Shown one piece after another: positions 7,943 through 37,361 of a DNA stretch of 64,000 nucleotides. The stretch is taken from assembly GCF_030769565.1 (NCBI RefSeq), contig NZ_JAVCAP010000016.1, positions 1-64,000 of the forward strand, in the 5' to 3' direction. This DNA comes from Methylophilus aquaticus. GTDB lineage: Bacteria > Pseudomonadota > Gammaproteobacteria > Burkholderiales > Methylophilaceae. Each line of letters opens with the position of its first letter. The stretch's first letter is position 1. The position numbers were made by a program, and so were the translations under genes. The notes under the pieces are model-generated. The model was given only the letters and a program-made list of their open reading frames with translations. It was not told the origin of the DNA and ran no database searches.

Positions 7943-10479
<2,537 letters not shown>

Positions 10480-31631: not shown

Positions 31632-32876
31632 CTAACTTTCCCGCCAAGGGGCTACCTTAAACAACAGCAACATCCCCGGAATCGCCAGCAAAGTACACAC
31701 ATAAAAAAACTGCTGCCATCCTAATGCTTCCACCATCCCGCCCGTAAGTGCGTTGAATACTGAGCGCGGTACGGCGGATAGACTGGTAAACAATGCAAGT
31801 TGCGTTGCAGTATAGGCCGGGTTGGTTTCACGTGCCATGTAGGCGACATACGCGGCAGTCCCCAGGCCGACACCAAACGCTTCAAAGCCGATCACAACGG
31901 CAAGCATGCTGCGTTCTGCTGCGCCGATCTCAGTGAAAGGGCCGTTTGTTGCCAGCCAGGCAAAACCCAGGATGGATAATGCCTGCACGACACCAAATAC
32001 CCATAAACCACGATTGATGCCGAGTTTGAGCATCCACAGGCCTCCCACAAATGCGCCTGCAATCTGCATCACCAGACCGCTGCCTTTGGCAATCGCGCCA
32101 ATGTCGGTTTTGCTAAAGCCCATGTCCAGATAAAACGGGGTGGCCAGTGCAGTGGCCATGCTGTCACCCAGTTTATAAAGCAGGATGAATAGCAGCACCC
32201 ACAAGGCATGTTGCCAGCCACTGCGTTGTATAAATTCCTTAAATGGCTCAATTACCGATTGCAACAGGGTTTTGGGTTTGCCAACGGCAACTGGCTCTTG
32301 AGACCAGAGCGTAAAGCCTATGCCAGGCAGCATGAATAATGCGACGACGAAAAAGACTTGTGACCAGGGCAGGTGGTCGGCCAGTATCAGTGCCAGTGAG
32401 CCCGGCACCAGTCCGGCAATCCGGTAGGCATTGACATGGATACTGTTGCCCAAGCCCAGTTCCTCGTCACTTAAAATTTCGCGACGGTAGGCATCAATGA
32501 CGATGTCCTGACTGGCAGAAAACAAGGCTACTAATGTTGCGAGCAGTGCAACGGTGCCAATTTCTGATTGCGGATTAAATGCGCCCAGACCGATAATTGC
32601 TCCGAATAAGCCTATTTGTGTGGCCAGAATCCAGCTGCGACGGCGGCCAAAGCGTGCCAGCAGGGTATAGCGATCCATCAAGGGCGCCCATAAAAACTTC
32701 CAGGTATAGGGTAGTTGCATAAAGGCGAAGGCGGCGATGGTTTTTAAATTCAGCCCTTCACTCCGCAACCAGGCAGGCAATAATTGCAGGAGCAGGTACA
32801 GTGGTAAGCCAGAACTGAAGCCTAAGGCCACACACATCAGCATGCGACGGGTAAACAGGGTTTGTGCGATGGTCAT
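31632..32876 (-). CDS. ampG: AmpG-type muropeptide transporter (MFS)
   Basis: A 414-residue inner-membrane permease of the major facilitator group, related to AmpG, which imports anhydro-muropeptides for cell-wall recycling. Visible: MLMCVALGFSSGLPLYLLLQLLPAWLRSEG, FLWAPLMDRYTLLARFGRRRSWI and SASQDIVIDAYRREIL, typical of AmpG. About 12 hydrophobic segments. I start at the ATG at 32876, since the longer frame would include the cytochrome-gene terminator. Substrate by family only. Confidence 0.88.
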   Translation of the reverse strand: MTIAQTLFTRRMLMCVALGFSSGLPLYLLLQLLPAWLRSEGLNLKTIAAFAFMQLPYTWKFLWAPLMDRYTLLARFGRRRSWILATQIGLFGAIIGLGAFNPQSEIGTVALLATLVALFSASQDIVIDAYRREILSDEELGLGNSIHVNAYRIAGLVPGSLALILADHLPWSQVFFVVALFMLPGIGFTLWSQEPVAVGKPKTLLQSVIEPFKEFIQRSGWQHALWVLLFILLYKLGDSMATALATPFYLDMGFSKTDIGAIAKGSGLVMQIAGAFVGGLWMLKLGINRGLWVFGVVQALSILGFAWLATNGPFTEIGAAERSMLAVVIGFEAFGVGLGTAAYVAYMARETNPAYTATQLALFTSLSAVPRSVFNALTGGMVEALGWQQFFYVCTLLAIPGMLLLFKVAPWRES

Positions 32877-32919
32877 GCCCGCATTGTAAACGCTTTTATA
32901 ATGGGCTCGATAAGCAGGC

Positions 32920-32947
32920 AAAAAAAAGCCAACCCTTGCGGGTTGGC
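32920..32947 (-). terminator. Rho-independent terminator of the xoxF-cytochrome operon
   Basis: On the minus strand GCCAACCC-GCAA-GGGTTGGC, a perfect eight-pair stem with a GCAA loop, is followed by eight T residues, 47 bases after the cytochrome stop. Confidence 0.93.
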
Positions 32948-32994
32948 ACACTCGGAGATTAATAATTAAGCTGGTTTAAATCAATACGCCTGTC

Positions 32995-33315
32995 CTAGAG
33001 GCTAAGTACCCACTGCACCAGTGTTTTAATGTCTTCATCTTTCACTTGCGGGCTGTTTGGTGGCATGGGCATATCCCCCCAGGCACCACTGCCGCCAGCC
33101 TTTACCTTCTGGATCAGCTTGGCTTCAGCCGTTTTGTCGCCTTTGTATTTGGCAGCCACATCTTTGTAAGCAGGGCCCAATACTTTTTTGTCTACGCTGT
33201 GGCAGAGCAGGCAACCACTTTTTTGCGCCAAGGCTTCGGCACCACCGCCTGCGATGGCTGAGGCCGTCGCAACCAGAAATGCAGTGGCTAACAGGGATTT
33301 ACTTAATAATTGCAT
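32995..33315 (-). CDS. Periplasmic class I cytochrome c
   Basis: A 106-residue precursor with a signal peptide (about 1-22, ending SAIAG). The mature protein has one haem site, SGCLLCHSVDKKVLGPAY, and the axial methionine in GDMPMPPNSPQV, as in c551/c5-type cytochromes. It lies 15 bases after xoxF and before a terminator, so it is probably co-transcribed and may take electrons from the dehydrogenase. It is shorter than usual XoxG cytochromes. Confidence 0.85.
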   Translation of the reverse strand: MQLLSKSLLATAFLVATASAIAGGGAEALAQKSGCLLCHSVDKKVLGPAYKDVAAKYKGDKTAEAKLIQKVKAGGSGAWGDMPMPPNSPQVKDEDIKTLVQWVLSL

Positions 33316-33330
33316 GGTTAATCCCTTCCC

Positions 33331-35199
33331 TTACAGGCTGAATACGTTCATTGCACCACCACCAGGAGCAGCATTGTATTTGGTCAGCTCTTTATAGCCA
33401 CCTGCAGCGCCCAGGCCATCGGTATCATTGGTCAAGCCCAGGTTCATGGCAACGCCCGCCCAGCCGCCAATGCCAGACAACACGCCTACGTATTGTTTGC
33501 CTTTATGGCCGTAAGTGATCACGTTACCTACCACGCCGGAACCGACTTGGAATTTCCACAACTCTTTACCGGTTTTGGCATCCAGCGCTTTTACCCAGCG
33601 ATCCAGCGTACCGTAGAACACCAGATCAGTTGCCGTGACCAGCGCACCACTCCAGGCAGAGAATTTCTCTTTGTTGTACCACTGGGCTTTGCCTTTGAGG
33701 CCATCCCAGGCCATAAACCCACCCATCACGCCGTCCGGACCGGCAAACATGGTCAAGGTGGCACCTACCCATGGTTGCCCTGCCACGTATTTGGATTCCA
33801 CAGGCTCATAGGTCATGCACACGTGGTTCAAAGGCACGTAGAAGGTTTTGTTTTTAGGCGAATAAGCGGCCGGTTGTTCATCTTTTACACCGAGCGCAGA
33901 AGGACAAATGCCTTGTGCGTTGTAATCCTGATGGGTCGAGTATTTCGGGTCTTTTACCGGAATGCCCGTTTTCAGGTCAATTTTGCTGGCCCAGTTGACA
34001 AATGGATTCATTTTTTCAGCCACCAGCAAGGTGCCGTTGGTGCGGTCAAAGGTATAGCCGAAACCATTGCGGTCAAAGTGTGAGGCCAGTTGCTTACCAT
34101 TGGCTTCCCACAGGATGATTTCGTTCATGCCATCGTAATCCCACTCGTCATGCGGGGTCATTTGATAGCCCCAGCGAGCAATGCCGCTGTCTAGGTCACG
34201 TGCAAAAATTGTCATCGACCACTTGTTGTCGCCCGGACGGACATCCGGGTTCCAGGTGCCTGGGTTACCTGTGCCGTAATACATCAGGTTCAGTTTCGGG
34301 TCATAGGAGTACCAGCCCCATGTTGGGCCGCCACCGTTTTGCCAGCCATCTTTTTGCTGTTGCGGTTTTAACCAGGTACGTACACCCAGATTGGCTTCAG
34401 GATATTTCAGTTGTGATTTATCCAAGTTTTTAAATGAGCCACCTTCTTTGTTGCCGCCGTTGACATCTTCATACACGGACAAGGCACTGTAATGCGGGTT
34501 TTCCTTGTTAAAGTCTTTGCCTATCATCACTTCGCTGTCAGAGCCAGTACTGTAAGCTTTCCAGATCAGGCTGCCGTCTTTAATGCTATAGGCAGAGATA
34601 TGGCAACGTACGCCAAACTCGCCGCCGGAACAACCAGTGATGATTTTGTCTTTAAACACATGAGGTACGTTGGTATTGGCGGCACCCATTTTAGGGTCGT
34701 TGACTTTCACATCCCACAGTTTTGCGCCAGTTTTGGCATCGAGCGCAACCAGCACGCCATTGTTTTGCTGCAAGAAGATTTTGCCATCACCGTAGCCGAG
34801 ACCTTTGTTCACGTTGTCACAACACAACACAGATTGCACATCTGGATCCTGTTTGGGAAAGTATGACCACAAAATTTTCTGATTGTCGTTGAGGTCCAGC
34901 GCGTACACATTGTTAGGAAACGCAGTGTGAATAAACATGGTGTTCCCGATCACCAGTGGCGCACCTTCGTGGCCGCGGTTCACGCCGGTGGCGAAAGACC
35001 ATGCGTATTTCAAATTTTTCACATTACTTTTATTAATTTGCGACAGACGGCTATAACCCTGATTAGCATAGTCTTTACGTGCCATGGCCCATTGATTGTC
35101 ATCTTTCATCAGGGCGTCCAGCTCTGCATCAGCCCATACGCTGGTGCTCAGGCTGCCCAGCAATAATGCGCCAACCGCAAGTTTGATTTTATGTTGCAT
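33331..35199 (-). CDS. xoxF: Lanthanide-dependent PQQ methanol dehydrogenase XoxF
   Basis: A periplasmic quinoprotein that oxidises methanol to formaldehyde (or further). The 622-residue precursor has a signal peptide (about 1-23). Visible are the adjacent cysteines C126-C127 of the disulfide ring, GGEFGVR (E194), GNPGTWN (N312) and DEWDYDGMNE with catalytic D354 and an extra aspartate D356. That second aspartate marks lanthanide-using XoxF and is alanine in calcium-type MxaF. Beta-propeller repeats such as ALDAKTGKELWKFQ are present. A GGAGG site precedes the ATG and a sigma-54 promoter lies 93 bases upstream. The clade (XoxF4 in this family of organisms) is inference. Confidence 0.92.
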   Translation of the reverse strand: MQHKIKLAVGALLLGSLSTSVWADAELDALMKDDNQWAMARKDYANQGYSRLSQINKSNVKNLKYAWSFATGVNRGHEGAPLVIGNTMFIHTAFPNNVYALDLNDNQKILWSYFPKQDPDVQSVLCCDNVNKGLGYGDGKIFLQQNNGVLVALDAKTGAKLWDVKVNDPKMGAANTNVPHVFKDKIITGCSGGEFGVRCHISAYSIKDGSLIWKAYSTGSDSEVMIGKDFNKENPHYSALSVYEDVNGGNKEGGSFKNLDKSQLKYPEANLGVRTWLKPQQQKDGWQNGGGPTWGWYSYDPKLNLMYYGTGNPGTWNPDVRPGDNKWSMTIFARDLDSGIARWGYQMTPHDEWDYDGMNEIILWEANGKQLASHFDRNGFGYTFDRTNGTLLVAEKMNPFVNWASKIDLKTGIPVKDPKYSTHQDYNAQGICPSALGVKDEQPAAYSPKNKTFYVPLNHVCMTYEPVESKYVAGQPWVGATLTMFAGPDGVMGGFMAWDGLKGKAQWYNKEKFSAWSGALVTATDLVFYGTLDRWVKALDAKTGKELWKFQVGSGVVGNVITYGHKGKQYVGVLSGIGGWAGVAMNLGLTNDTDGLGAAGGYKELTKYNAAPGGGAMNVFSL

Positions 35200-35291
35200 A
35201 AATTACCTCCAAAATGGTATGAAGCTGAATTATCAATATGGTTACTGAAAGTAATCAAAAGCCTCTTTTGTTACTCACAGGATGAGGTGAT

Positions 35292-35308
35292 TGCAATGCG
35301 TGTGCCAA
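35292..35308 (-). promoter_or_regulatory. Sigma-54 (-24/-12) promoter of xoxF
   Basis: The minus strand reads TTGGCACACGCATTGCA, a full match to the sigma-54 core (TGGCAC, five bases, TTGCA). It points at xoxF and would give a leader of roughly 80 bases. A sigma-54 activator gene is divergent next to it. Confidence 0.85.
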
Positions 35309-35426
35309 GTTGTGCAAACACTTGGTGATTGAGAAAAACTAAATTAAAATCAATATGTTAATTGTCTTGGCTGCTTTTGATGTTGATCAATGTAGCCGAG
35401 GTGGCTGTTCAGTACTGTGTCAAACT

Positions 35427-35461
35427 GGTACAGTTGTTCAATCGGTGGTACAGGTGTTCAA
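35427..35461. promoter_or_regulatory. Direct repeats, candidate activator sites for xoxF
   Basis: GGTACAGTTGTTCAA (35427-35441) and GGTACAGGTGTTCAA (35447-35461) differ at one base and are 20 bases apart, about two helix turns. They lie about 120-170 bases upstream of the sigma-54 promoter, a usual distance for enhancer-binding proteins, and just before the acoR-like start. Confidence 0.55.
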
Positions 35462-35468
35462 GTCAGTC

Positions 35469-37361
35469 ATGTCAAAATTTTCCCAGCCCTCTTCGCAACA
35501 GGCTTCTTTAGCCATGCGTGATGACCAGCGTGCGATTGCCGAGGCGATTGCACGATCGTGGCGACGCTGCATGGTTAAAGGGGTGGATGAACAGGCGCCA
35601 GCCCAGGATCAAATTATTACGGCACAAGAACTTGCACAGCGGCTGGAAAAAAACCGGCTCTTACTCACGCATGCCGAGCCTGAAATGTTGACACTGAGTG
35701 AGCAGATCGCACATACCCGTAGTCTGGTAATTTTGACCGATAACGACGGCGTGATTCTGCGCACCAAGAGCGATGGCATAGAAGAAAACACTATTCGTGC
35801 TTCATTACTTCCGGGGGCGTCGTGGAGCGAAGAGCACCGCGGAACCAATGCTATTGGCACAGCGCTGGTTGAGCGCAGCCCTATCAGTGTGCAGGGTGCC
35901 GAGCATTTTATGGCGTATCACCATAGCTTAAGCTGTTCGGCAGTCCCGATTTTTGCAGCCAATAACCAGTTGGTGGCGACTCTTGACGTTTCAAATGACT
36001 ATAGTGCGCCGCAACAACACACGCTGGCATTAGTTAAAATGGCTGCACAGATGGTCGAAAACCGCCTGTTTCATGCAACGGCAACGGGTGAGATCGGCGT
36101 GCATTTTCATGCCAGACCAGAGTTTATCGGTACGCTTTGGGAGGGCTTGGCTTTGTTTGACGCACAAGGTCAGTTACAAGCGATTAACCGCAGCGGGCAG
36201 TTTCAGTTTGGCCTGCCGCTGGATGAAGATGTGCTCTCAGTAAGGCAGGTACAGTTTGAAGAGGTGTTTGACGAGTCATGGTCTGCTTTCAAGCAGCGTT
36301 GCTTGTCAACTGACCTGTTATTTCCGTTGCACTTGCGTAATGGTGCTCGTTTGTTTGCGCGCGTTTCCAGTAAAGCCACCCTCATTTCCTCCCGTCCGGC
36401 GGTTGCTGTGCCACGTGAATCAGCGGCAAGCCTAGCGTTGTTGGACAGTGGTGATCCACAATTAAAGCTAGCGATTGCGCAAGTTAAGCAGGTGCTCAAT
36501 CGTGAGATTCCTATTTTAGTATTGGGTGAAACTGGCGCTGGTAAGGAACTGTTTTCGAGGGCTATCCACGATGCAAGTACGCGCCGTGACAAACCATTTA
36601 TTGCCGTGAACTGTGCCGCCTTGCCAGAAGGACTGATAGAGGCTGAGCTGTTTGGCTACGAAGAAGGTGCTTATACCGGTGCCAAACGAAAAGGCAATGT
36701 CGGCAAAATTCAGCAGGCAGATGGGGGCACTCTGTTTCTGGATGAGATAGGCGATATGCCACTTTCGTTACAAGCACGGTTGTTGCGTGTGTTGCAAGAG
36801 CGGTGCATCACCCCGCTGGGTTCCAGCAAATCGGTGCCGGTCAACTTTATGCTGGTGAGTGCAACCAATCAGAAGCTCAAGGATAAAGTGGCTGTGGGTG
36901 AGTTTCGCAGTGATTTGTATTACCGGATTAATGGCCTGACAGTGCAATTACCAGCCTTGCGTCAACGCCAGGATTTGCAACCCCTGATCAGGATGATTTT
37001 GCAAGTGGAGCAAGCAGGAGAAGCGCACATCAGCGATGAAGTGATGGCGTTGTTTTCACGCCATCCATGGCCTGGTAATGTGCGGCAATTACACAATGTA
37101 TTGCGGACGGCGGTTGCTTTGGCGGATGGTGCAGTGATCGGCTTGCAGCATCTGACGCAGGATTTTTTGGATGAACTTGAATGTGTGGCTGCTGTAATGG
37201 TTGAAACCATACCCGCAGGGCTGACATTAAAGGCGCAGTCCGATGAGGCCGTTCGCTTGGCCATGCAACAGCAGGCTGGCAATATCTCTGCAGTGGCGCG
37301 ACAACTGGGGATGAGCCGTAATACCTTGTATCGACGACTGAAGGCGCTGAATCTGGGCTAG
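35469..37361 (+). CDS. AcoR-type sigma-54-dependent activator
   Basis: A 630-residue bacterial enhancer-binding protein. N-terminal GAF-like sensor (SLVILTDNDGVILRT... WSEEHRGTNAIGTAL... CSAVPIF), then the AAA+ domain with Walker A GETGAGKE (about 353-360), the sigma-54 contact loop as GAYTGA (about 400-405), TLFLDEIGDMPLSLQARLLRVLQE, and a C-terminal Fis-type helix-turn-helix (NISAVARQLGMSRNTLYRRLKAL). AcoR relatives respond to acetoin and alcohols. Its place beside a sigma-54 promoter for xoxF suggests it drives xoxF. The start (ATG 35469) has no good ribosome site and is uncertain. Confidence 0.88.
   Translation: MSKFSQPSSQQASLAMRDDQRAIAEAIARSWRRCMVKGVDEQAPAQDQIITAQELAQRLEKNRLLLTHAEPEMLTLSEQIAHTRSLVILTDNDGVILRTKSDGIEENTIRASLLPGASWSEEHRGTNAIGTALVERSPISVQGAEHFMAYHHSLSCSAVPIFAANNQLVATLDVSNDYSAPQQHTLALVKMAAQMVENRLFHATATGEIGVHFHARPEFIGTLWEGLALFDAQGQLQAINRSGQFQFGLPLDEDVLSVRQVQFEEVFDESWSAFKQRCLSTDLLFPLHLRNGARLFARVSSKATLISSRPAVAVPRESAASLALLDSGDPQLKLAIAQVKQVLNREIPILVLGETGAGKELFSRAIHDASTRRDKPFIAVNCAALPEGLIEAELFGYEEGAYTGAKRKGNVGKIQQADGGTLFLDEIGDMPLSLQARLLRVLQERCITPLGSSKSVPVNFMLVSATNQKLKDKVAVGEFRSDLYYRINGLTVQLPALRQRQDLQPLIRMILQVEQAGEAHISDEVMALFSRHPWPGNVRQLHNVLRTAVALADGAVIGLQHLTQDFLDELECVAAVMVETIPAGLTLKAQSDEAVRLAMQQQAGNISAVARQLGMSRNTLYRRLKALNLG

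Follow-up and report, generated by a model that had tools for sequence, protein, structure and literature searches.

A sigma-54 promoter candidate and a divergent GAF-AAA+-Fis activator gene conserved at xoxF4-2 in Methylophilaceae

The window analysed here, meaning the whole stretch of DNA under study, comprises 64,000 nucleotides of a Methylophilus aquaticus contig (NZ_JAVCAP010000016.1). It contains xoxF, a small cytochrome c gene downstream of it, and a gene for a sigma-54 activator that is transcribed divergently from xoxF. A -24/-12 promoter match, putative UAS dyads and a candidate IHF site lie in the spacer between the two divergent genes (Table 1).

Table 1. Features at the xoxF locus, in positions of the window.
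Feature	Position	Strand	Remarks
Terminator-like hairpin and T-run	32928..32947	-	After the cytochrome gene
Small cytochrome c gene	32995..33315	-	106 aa, CLLCH; homolog of the cytochrome adjoining the JLW8 gene
xoxF, XoxF4-2 type lanthanide-dependent methanol dehydrogenase (by sequence)	33331..35199	-	622 aa
Sigma-54 -24/-12 promoter, TTGGCACACGCATTGCA	35292..35308	-	Motif match and conservation
Candidate IHF site, AATCAATATGTTA	35348..35360	+	Consensus WATCAANNNNTTR; between UAS and promoter
Third, half-like UAS site (putative), TTTGACACAGTACTG	35410..35424	-	18-base motif CTGTTCAATTTTGACACA
UAS dyad 1 (putative), TTGAACAACTGTACC	35427..35441	-	Pseudo-palindrome GNACANNTGTNC; centre ~153 bp upstream of predicted start
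UAS dyad 2 (putative), TTGAACACCTGTACC	35447..35461	-	20 bp from dyad 1; centre ~173 bp upstream of predicted start
Divergent sigma-54 activator gene	35469..37361 (start taken as 35469)	+	GAF 76-200, AAA+ 329-492, lid, Fis-type HTH 597-626

The XoxF protein of the window is a PQQ dehydrogenase of the methanol/ethanol subfamily, scoring above the cut-off of TIGR03075. The source genome has three other xoxF genes, whose products are 71-76% identical to that of the window (72-73% in a second comparison), along with a ~50% XoxF homolog, which we take to be probably mxaF, and two more distant homologs. The lanthanide Asp is present two residues past the catalytic Asp, in the sequence HDEWDYDG, which reads HDEWDFDG in the lanthanide XoxF 6oc5; the lanthanide ligands in 6OC6 are listed in a 2024 review (PMC11845868). 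A tree built from 73 XoxF rows placed the window gene with mmol_1770 of Methylotenera mobilis JLW8. A homologous small cytochrome gene follows xoxF4-2 in M. mobilis JLW8 and is missing downstream in M. versatilis 301, and in a Methylovorus-like genome the downstream gene is a different cytochrome-like ORF; the same downstream arrangements were described for mmol_1770, m301_1208 and msip34_0016, respectively (PMC3728764). Since both the place in the tree and the downstream genes match mmol_1770, the window gene was assigned to the XoxF4-2 type of PMC6028718, where lanthanide-dependent activity was reported for XoxF4-2 of M. mobilis JLW8. The sister branch in the XoxF tree holds HTCC2181 (L150) and Methylopumilus, and genomes of that kind were described as having XoxF4-1 only (PMC6028718), from which we infer that the whole sister branch is XoxF4-1.

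The xoxF-cytochrome unit would end at the hairpin. Three terminator-like sites were found in the region against 4.1 expected, and this one was the strongest of them by stem and T-run. A gene for an AmpG-like transporter comes next, beyond the hairpin. A scan of positions 32700-35600 with Rfam gave nothing at the gathering thresholds.

The earlier note had pointed to a full-match sigma-54 promoter facing xoxF, and this was found as described, with TTGGCACACGCATTGCA on the minus strand separated by 92 bases from the xoxF ATG at 35199. The site has the -24 GG and -12 GC elements at standard spacing and agrees with the consensus YTGGCACN5TTGCW. If the C of TTGC is taken as -12, the usual spacing would place the transcription start at about 35281, giving a predicted leader of 82 bases. 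Such sites also arise by chance. With one mismatch allowed, the window contained 7 sigma-54-like matches versus 11.65 expected, so that the xoxF site by itself is within chance for a 64-kb window at that stringency; exact matches to TGGCACN5TTGC numbered two, one being the xoxF site and the other lying at 9298. What lifts the xoxF site above chance is comparison, namely the genome-wide counts of the consensus, the uniqueness of the UAS pattern and the conservation of the site within one xoxF branch. The full consensus YTGGCACN5TTGCA occurs four times in the 2.96-Mb genome, and the reversed-pattern control occurs 0 times. Two of the other copies lie about 1 kb apart (C1:179790-179806, L217, and C1:180859-180875, L218). 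The ORF downstream of the latter reads to us like a Flp pilin, and a Pfam search with it gave no match; the remaining copy (L220) is inside a 695-aa ORF that is presumably flhA. The source genome has rpoN (C1:296389-296862), as do 176 of 187 genomes of the family.

Upstream of the promoter, the two 15-base direct repeats 20 bases apart that had been noticed earlier were confirmed as GGTACAGTTGTTCAA at 35427-35441 and GGTACAGGTGTTCAA at 35447-35461. The analysis added a third, half-like site and the IHF-like site, neither of which the earlier note mentions. Reading towards xoxF on its own strand, one meets dyad 2, dyad 1, half-like site, IHF-like match and -24/-12 site in turn. The exact UAS pattern TTGAACANCTGTNC has two copies in the whole 2.96-Mb genome, both of them before xoxF, and its reversed control has none. 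This uniqueness, which is that of the exact pattern in the source genome, suggests a regulon of one unit.

Similar elements were recovered at other loci. An unsupervised search of 32 upstream regions, hand-picked as representatives, returned a 14-base dyad, GTaACAgtTGTTCA, with a log-likelihood of 217 versus 42-51 in three shuffles, which were mononucleotide shuffles run with fewer random starts. The best sites for this dyad in the 32 representative loci preceded the -24 element by about 125-181 bases, and the TGACACA of the half-like site was found at the matching place in 21 of them. A matrix trained within the genus, on 13 close Methylophilus loci, detected a dyad at p<=0.01 (100 shuffles per locus, near-copy locus L080 left out) in 19 of 35 test loci, made up of 19 of 32 from other genera and 0 of 3 deeper loci of the same genus (L034-L036); no UAS reached p<=0.01 with this matrix in the remaining 13 of the 32 other-genus loci. 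The Methylobacillus variant, GTAGCACCTGTTCA, scored low with it. A broader matrix separated the branch well from other xoxF loci, with low scores still at L095, L096 and L112; since it was built from sites of the same loci and is thus partly circular, the genus-trained test is the fairer one. Matches to the IHF consensus with at most one mismatch were found in 31 of 49 spacers against 13.0 expected from shuffles, with weak or absent matches in spacers of higher GC content, and after this test across loci we regard the site in the window as a candidate.

The same promoter was then sought before other xoxF homologues, in a named collection consisting of the best 80 of 578 loci, with up to 600 bases of upstream sequence scanned (about 260-520 in four of the 54 loci outside the branch). 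The motif [N]TGGCA[CT]N5TTGC was present upstream of all 26 loci of the window's xoxF branch (L088-L113); it was found at none of the 54 other xoxF loci (L114-L167) and at none of the three paralogs in the source genome, that is, at 0 of 57 other xoxF loci. A second collection was built from the regulator, with 62 loci of the family (L021-L082), 13 of which have no adjoining xoxF (L060, L061, L064 and L070-L079). Each of the other 49, comprising 47 with xoxF4-2 and 2 at a contig end, had the motif; wherever the predicted xoxF start was in view, the distance to it was about 75-135 bases. The counts of 26/26 and 49/49 are not independent, because the two locus sets overlap and their rows are related.

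Mapped onto the XoxF tree, with 38 rows having the site and 35 lacking it (thinning had removed another 23 rows lacking the site), presence of the site required one label change, compared with a mean of 24.7 after shuffling. The clade of all 38 site-bearing proteins had a support of 7%, because five second copies from Methylobacillus (L065-L069) were not firmly placed. Given this weak placement, the site may have been gained or, no less plausibly, have been present in a sigma-54-controlled ancestor and lost from the sister branch.

A divergent regulator scoring above 300 bits accompanies xoxF at 23 of the 26 branch loci among the best 80 of 578. At the three other loci the contig ends early in the regulator gene (L112), the regulator is broken (L106, Methylobacillus glycogenes, also L081), or none adjoins (L099). 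The locus with the broken activator has kept both promoter and UAS. At L099, the xoxF4-2 gene of Novimethylophilus kurashikiensis has no activator within 4 kb upstream, and two dyads and the -24/-12 site are kept (L099:3771-3926). The genome of that species (G177, taken as the same strain) has exaC-side activators at L064 and L073, the first of which falls inside the xoxF-regulator group. Genome G055 has activator copies at L060 and L061, with identical scores and no adjoining xoxF. There the UAS dyad remains, the -24/-12 site has decayed and the next gene codes for a metallophosphoesterase; another activator of this genome (L069) retains both xoxF and the site.

The product of the divergent gene has the GAF-AAA+-Fis composition read from it earlier, with matches to PF01590, PF00158 (E 1.2e-65) and PF02954, a Walker A motif GETGAGKE and a GAYTGA loop. 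GAYTGA occurs in 4 of 13 aligned activators including that of the window, and GAFTGA in the other 9; the 12 homologs in this alignment are 81-85% (three) and 58-65% (nine) identical to it. Its N-terminus matches DhaR 4lrx (E 8.2e-9), and no receiver or transmembrane-sensor domain is among its 11 Pfam matches. The description of the protein as AcoR-type holds for the domain order and for the gene neighbourhood of its kin, and does not stand as a curated family assignment: the best NCBIfam matches, PrdR and DhaR, fall far below their cut-offs, 0 of the 25 models listed (of 28 matches) is above cut-off, and those 25 include no AcoR model. A structure predicted from the 13-row alignment had a mean pLDDT of 56, too low for it to be used in fold comparison or for reading the central region (200-325).

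The kin of the activator are found beside genes of alcohol and aldehyde oxidation. An aldehyde dehydrogenase gene is near 15 homologs, 14 of them divergent from it and 12 with a DUF779 gene in view; the enzyme was ExaC acetaldehyde dehydrogenase above the NCBIfam cut-off in both cases tested, and the DUF779 assignment was confirmed in the one tested. Across the order, homologs at E<=1e-150 were found in 20 of 200 genomes, 4 of these 20 belonging to the same family, and they lie near genes for cytochrome c550 PedF and a binding-protein-like product (two loci tested) or a quinoprotein-associated SoxYZ-like carrier (one tested). Among L187-L202 and L204-L214, activators of the same protein family stand beside genes for PedF, the SoxYZ-like carrier or PQQ dehydrogenase, or beside exaC genes. 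A good sigma-54 site precedes the PedF gene at L189, and one precedes a similar-looking gene at L191. In another family (L214:7205-9034), a XoxF-like gene (52%) and a MoxJ-like gene are separated by roughly 5 kb from the gene of a 44%-identical activator, which may be a pairing that arose independently; upstream of this XoxF-like operon no convincing sigma-54 site was found (18.7 by an ad hoc score).

In a regulator tree of 74 rows, from which 8 partial or duplicate rows had been dropped, 44 xoxF4-2-linked rows fell in a group of 48 with a support of 98. The group also holds L064 from the exaC side, L060 with no xoxF, and two contig-end rows. A GAF core (GTNAIGT at 125-131, H146, C156 and others) is common to the xoxF-, exaC- and quinoprotein-linked groups. 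At the third position of the recognition helix, all five xoxF4-2-linked rows compared have N, and another such row (L103) has K; the three Methylophilaceae exaC-linked rows other than L064 have A, and L064 has T. The exaC spacers at L070-L079 contain no well-scoring xoxF dyad (best 9.5, broader matrix).

We believe that the XoxF4-2/cytochrome c unit is run from the sigma-54 promoter by a dedicated one-component activator, which is encoded divergently from it and probably responds to a small alcohol or aldehyde. Judging from the sequence comparisons described above, we give this reading a probability of roughly 0.9. Sigma-54 control by the divergent activator, which the earlier note had suggested for xoxF, is thus upheld for XoxF4-2, where the module is conserved across genera, and does not extend to xoxF in general, as none of the 57 other loci (best 80 of 578 and own paralogs) has the promoter motif. 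In the proposed mechanism, sigma-54 RNA polymerase would wait as a closed complex at 35292-35308, and the product of the divergent gene, acting as a dedicated enhancer-binding activator, would bind some 135-175 bp upstream, at the tandem dyads (35410-35461). Bending of the DNA, perhaps by IHF at 35348-35360, would bring the activator up to the waiting polymerase, and a signal received by the GAF domain would then let the AAA+ domain hydrolyse ATP and open the promoter. The outcome would be a conditional isozyme beside a differently controlled XoxF4-1. The signal is probably methanol, formaldehyde or a C2 compound rather than a metal, since the activator's kin are encoded opposite exaC, the acetaldehyde dehydrogenase gene, or opposite quinoprotein-associated genes.

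Sigma-54 promoters have little basal transcription. This fits published RNA data from in situ and laboratory conditions, in which msip34_0016 was 100-fold and mmol_1770 4-6-fold higher in situ, although msip34_0016 remained at a fairly low absolute level and that of m301_1208 was very low throughout (PMC3728764). The same data could be read in another way, with sigma-54 serving as a nitrogen, redox or growth-phase input and the activator integrating a general in situ cue and not a substrate. The semi-in-situ rise of mmol_1770 and msip34_0016, which was not seen on laboratory methanol, speaks for such a cue, and GAF activators are able to sense NO or 2-oxoglutarate, as in NorR and NifA (PMC5874634). 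However, the kin of the activator stand close to genes for the oxidation of alcohols and aldehydes, and the confinement of the exact UAS pattern to this one place in the genome speaks against a general regulon. We therefore consider a general cue unlikely, while ranking it first among the alternatives.

A metal or PQQ is also a possible signal, and in that case the promoter and activator would be real and the GAF domain would report lanthanide or PQQ status, making the module a lanthanide switch for XoxF4-2. The target does look like a lanthanide enzyme, but the GAF core is common to activators facing exaC or quinoprotein-associated genes, and ExaC is not known as a lanthanide enzyme. The response of xoxF to lanthanides in other methylotrophs runs through MxbDM/MxcQE or MxaY/MxaB (PMC6115532, PMC5018670, PMC11845868), whereas the window activator has no receiver or transmembrane-sensor domain among its Pfam matches; moreover, the sister branch, which should hold the likewise lanthanide-dependent XoxF4-1 (PMC6028718), is without the module. 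Taken together, this makes a lanthanide or PQQ switch improbable, more so than a general cue.

It would be a considerable surprise if xoxF4-2 were mainly sigma-70-driven, with the sigma-54-like site and repeats being minor or relics. A sigma-70-like match at 9 of 12 positions does exist at 35258-35229, but such matches number 3 in the region against 3.5 expected from shuffles and are not above chance, while the -24/-12 core is retained across genera despite diverged spacer DNA and is degenerate where the regulator stands without xoxF4-2 (L060). Least credible of all is that the motifs have no function and are shared only because the short spacers have a common ancestor, since, related though the loci are, with many near-copy rows and two overlapping sets, position and core survive between genera whose regulators are only 50-60% identical, L099 retains both dyads and the promoter with no adjoining activator gene, and the motif is absent from the 57 other xoxF loci (54 of them from the best 80 of 578).

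Returning to control by a dedicated alcohol- or aldehyde-responsive activator, we lean somewhat towards a fuller account, in which, in the Methylophilaceae that have it, the decision to make XoxF4-2, the second lanthanide methanol dehydrogenase, would fall to a dedicated, possibly single-target sigma-54 activator instead of to a metal-sensing two-component switch; this activator would read a cytoplasmic C1 or C2 metabolite and have a common origin with the alcohol/aldehyde-linked activators at exaC operons. Many Methylophilaceae carry several xoxF genes, and a conserved switch of this kind would offer a testable answer to the question of how they choose between lanthanide methanol enzymes. If true, it would mean that for a lanthanide enzyme control by signal is separable from control by metal. 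The differing in situ expression of several xoxF genes was noted in 2013 with no regulator named in the available text (PMC3728764), and the 2024 review, in the part available, calls for more work on how xoxF is regulated, which it expects to differ between species (PMC11845868). In the open-licence literature searched, part of it in excerpt, we found no description of sigma-54 control of xoxF, whether of promoter, UAS, isozyme specificity or conservation. An isozyme-specific sigma-54 module identifies a promoter, putative binding sites and a protein to knock out, and xoxF mutants have already been made in M. mobilis JLW8 (PMC6028718). The locus also provides a promoter with an activator of its own, and the exact UAS pattern of this pair has no copy elsewhere in the source genome.

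The machinery is ordinary for sigma-54; the target is unexpected, and the arrangement is conserved across genera. A point against sigma-54 control, though from a different bacterial group, is that in Methylosinus sporium RpoD promoters were assigned to the majority of the genes for methane and central carbon metabolism (PMC12403871). The legend to Figure 1 of the 2024 review includes a GAF-modulated sigma 54-specific regulator among the genes shown for four species, one of them M. mobilis JLW8 (PMC11845868). The neighbour of xoxF4-2 has therefore probably been drawn already, the assignment to species being ours; it is probably the same gene as the window activator, and is given in that legend as a gene label. 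The systems MxbDM/MxcQE of Methylobacterium and MxaY/MxaB of Methylomicrobium likewise set xoxF levels, but are described as two-component systems, in contrast to an activator whose 11 Pfam matches include no receiver domain. In Azospirillum brasilense, exaA is a quinoprotein alcohol dehydrogenase gene under sigma-54 (Singh 2017, cited in PMC6115532), differing in that its regulator is of the LuxR type and not GAF-AAA+-Fis, and in that exaA is not xoxF. The exaC-linked regulators of Methylophilaceae and other families are related by sequence, with 44-55% identity and the same conserved GAF core; they differ in the spacers, which lack a scoring xoxF dyad (L070-L079), and in the third residue of the recognition helix. 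Similar in design are also AcoR, BmoR and MmoR, which act on acetoin, alcohol and methane monooxygenase operons and share the one-component sensor, AAA+ domain, Fis HTH, gene position near the target and -24/-12 promoter. BmoR responds to alcohols (PMC6366067) and is a precedent for an alcohol-sensing sigma-54 activator, and the sMMO genes have a sigma-54 promoter and MmoR, called close to the GAF group (PMC5874634). What sets the present module apart from all three is the target, which here is, by sequence, a lanthanide-dependent methanol dehydrogenase.
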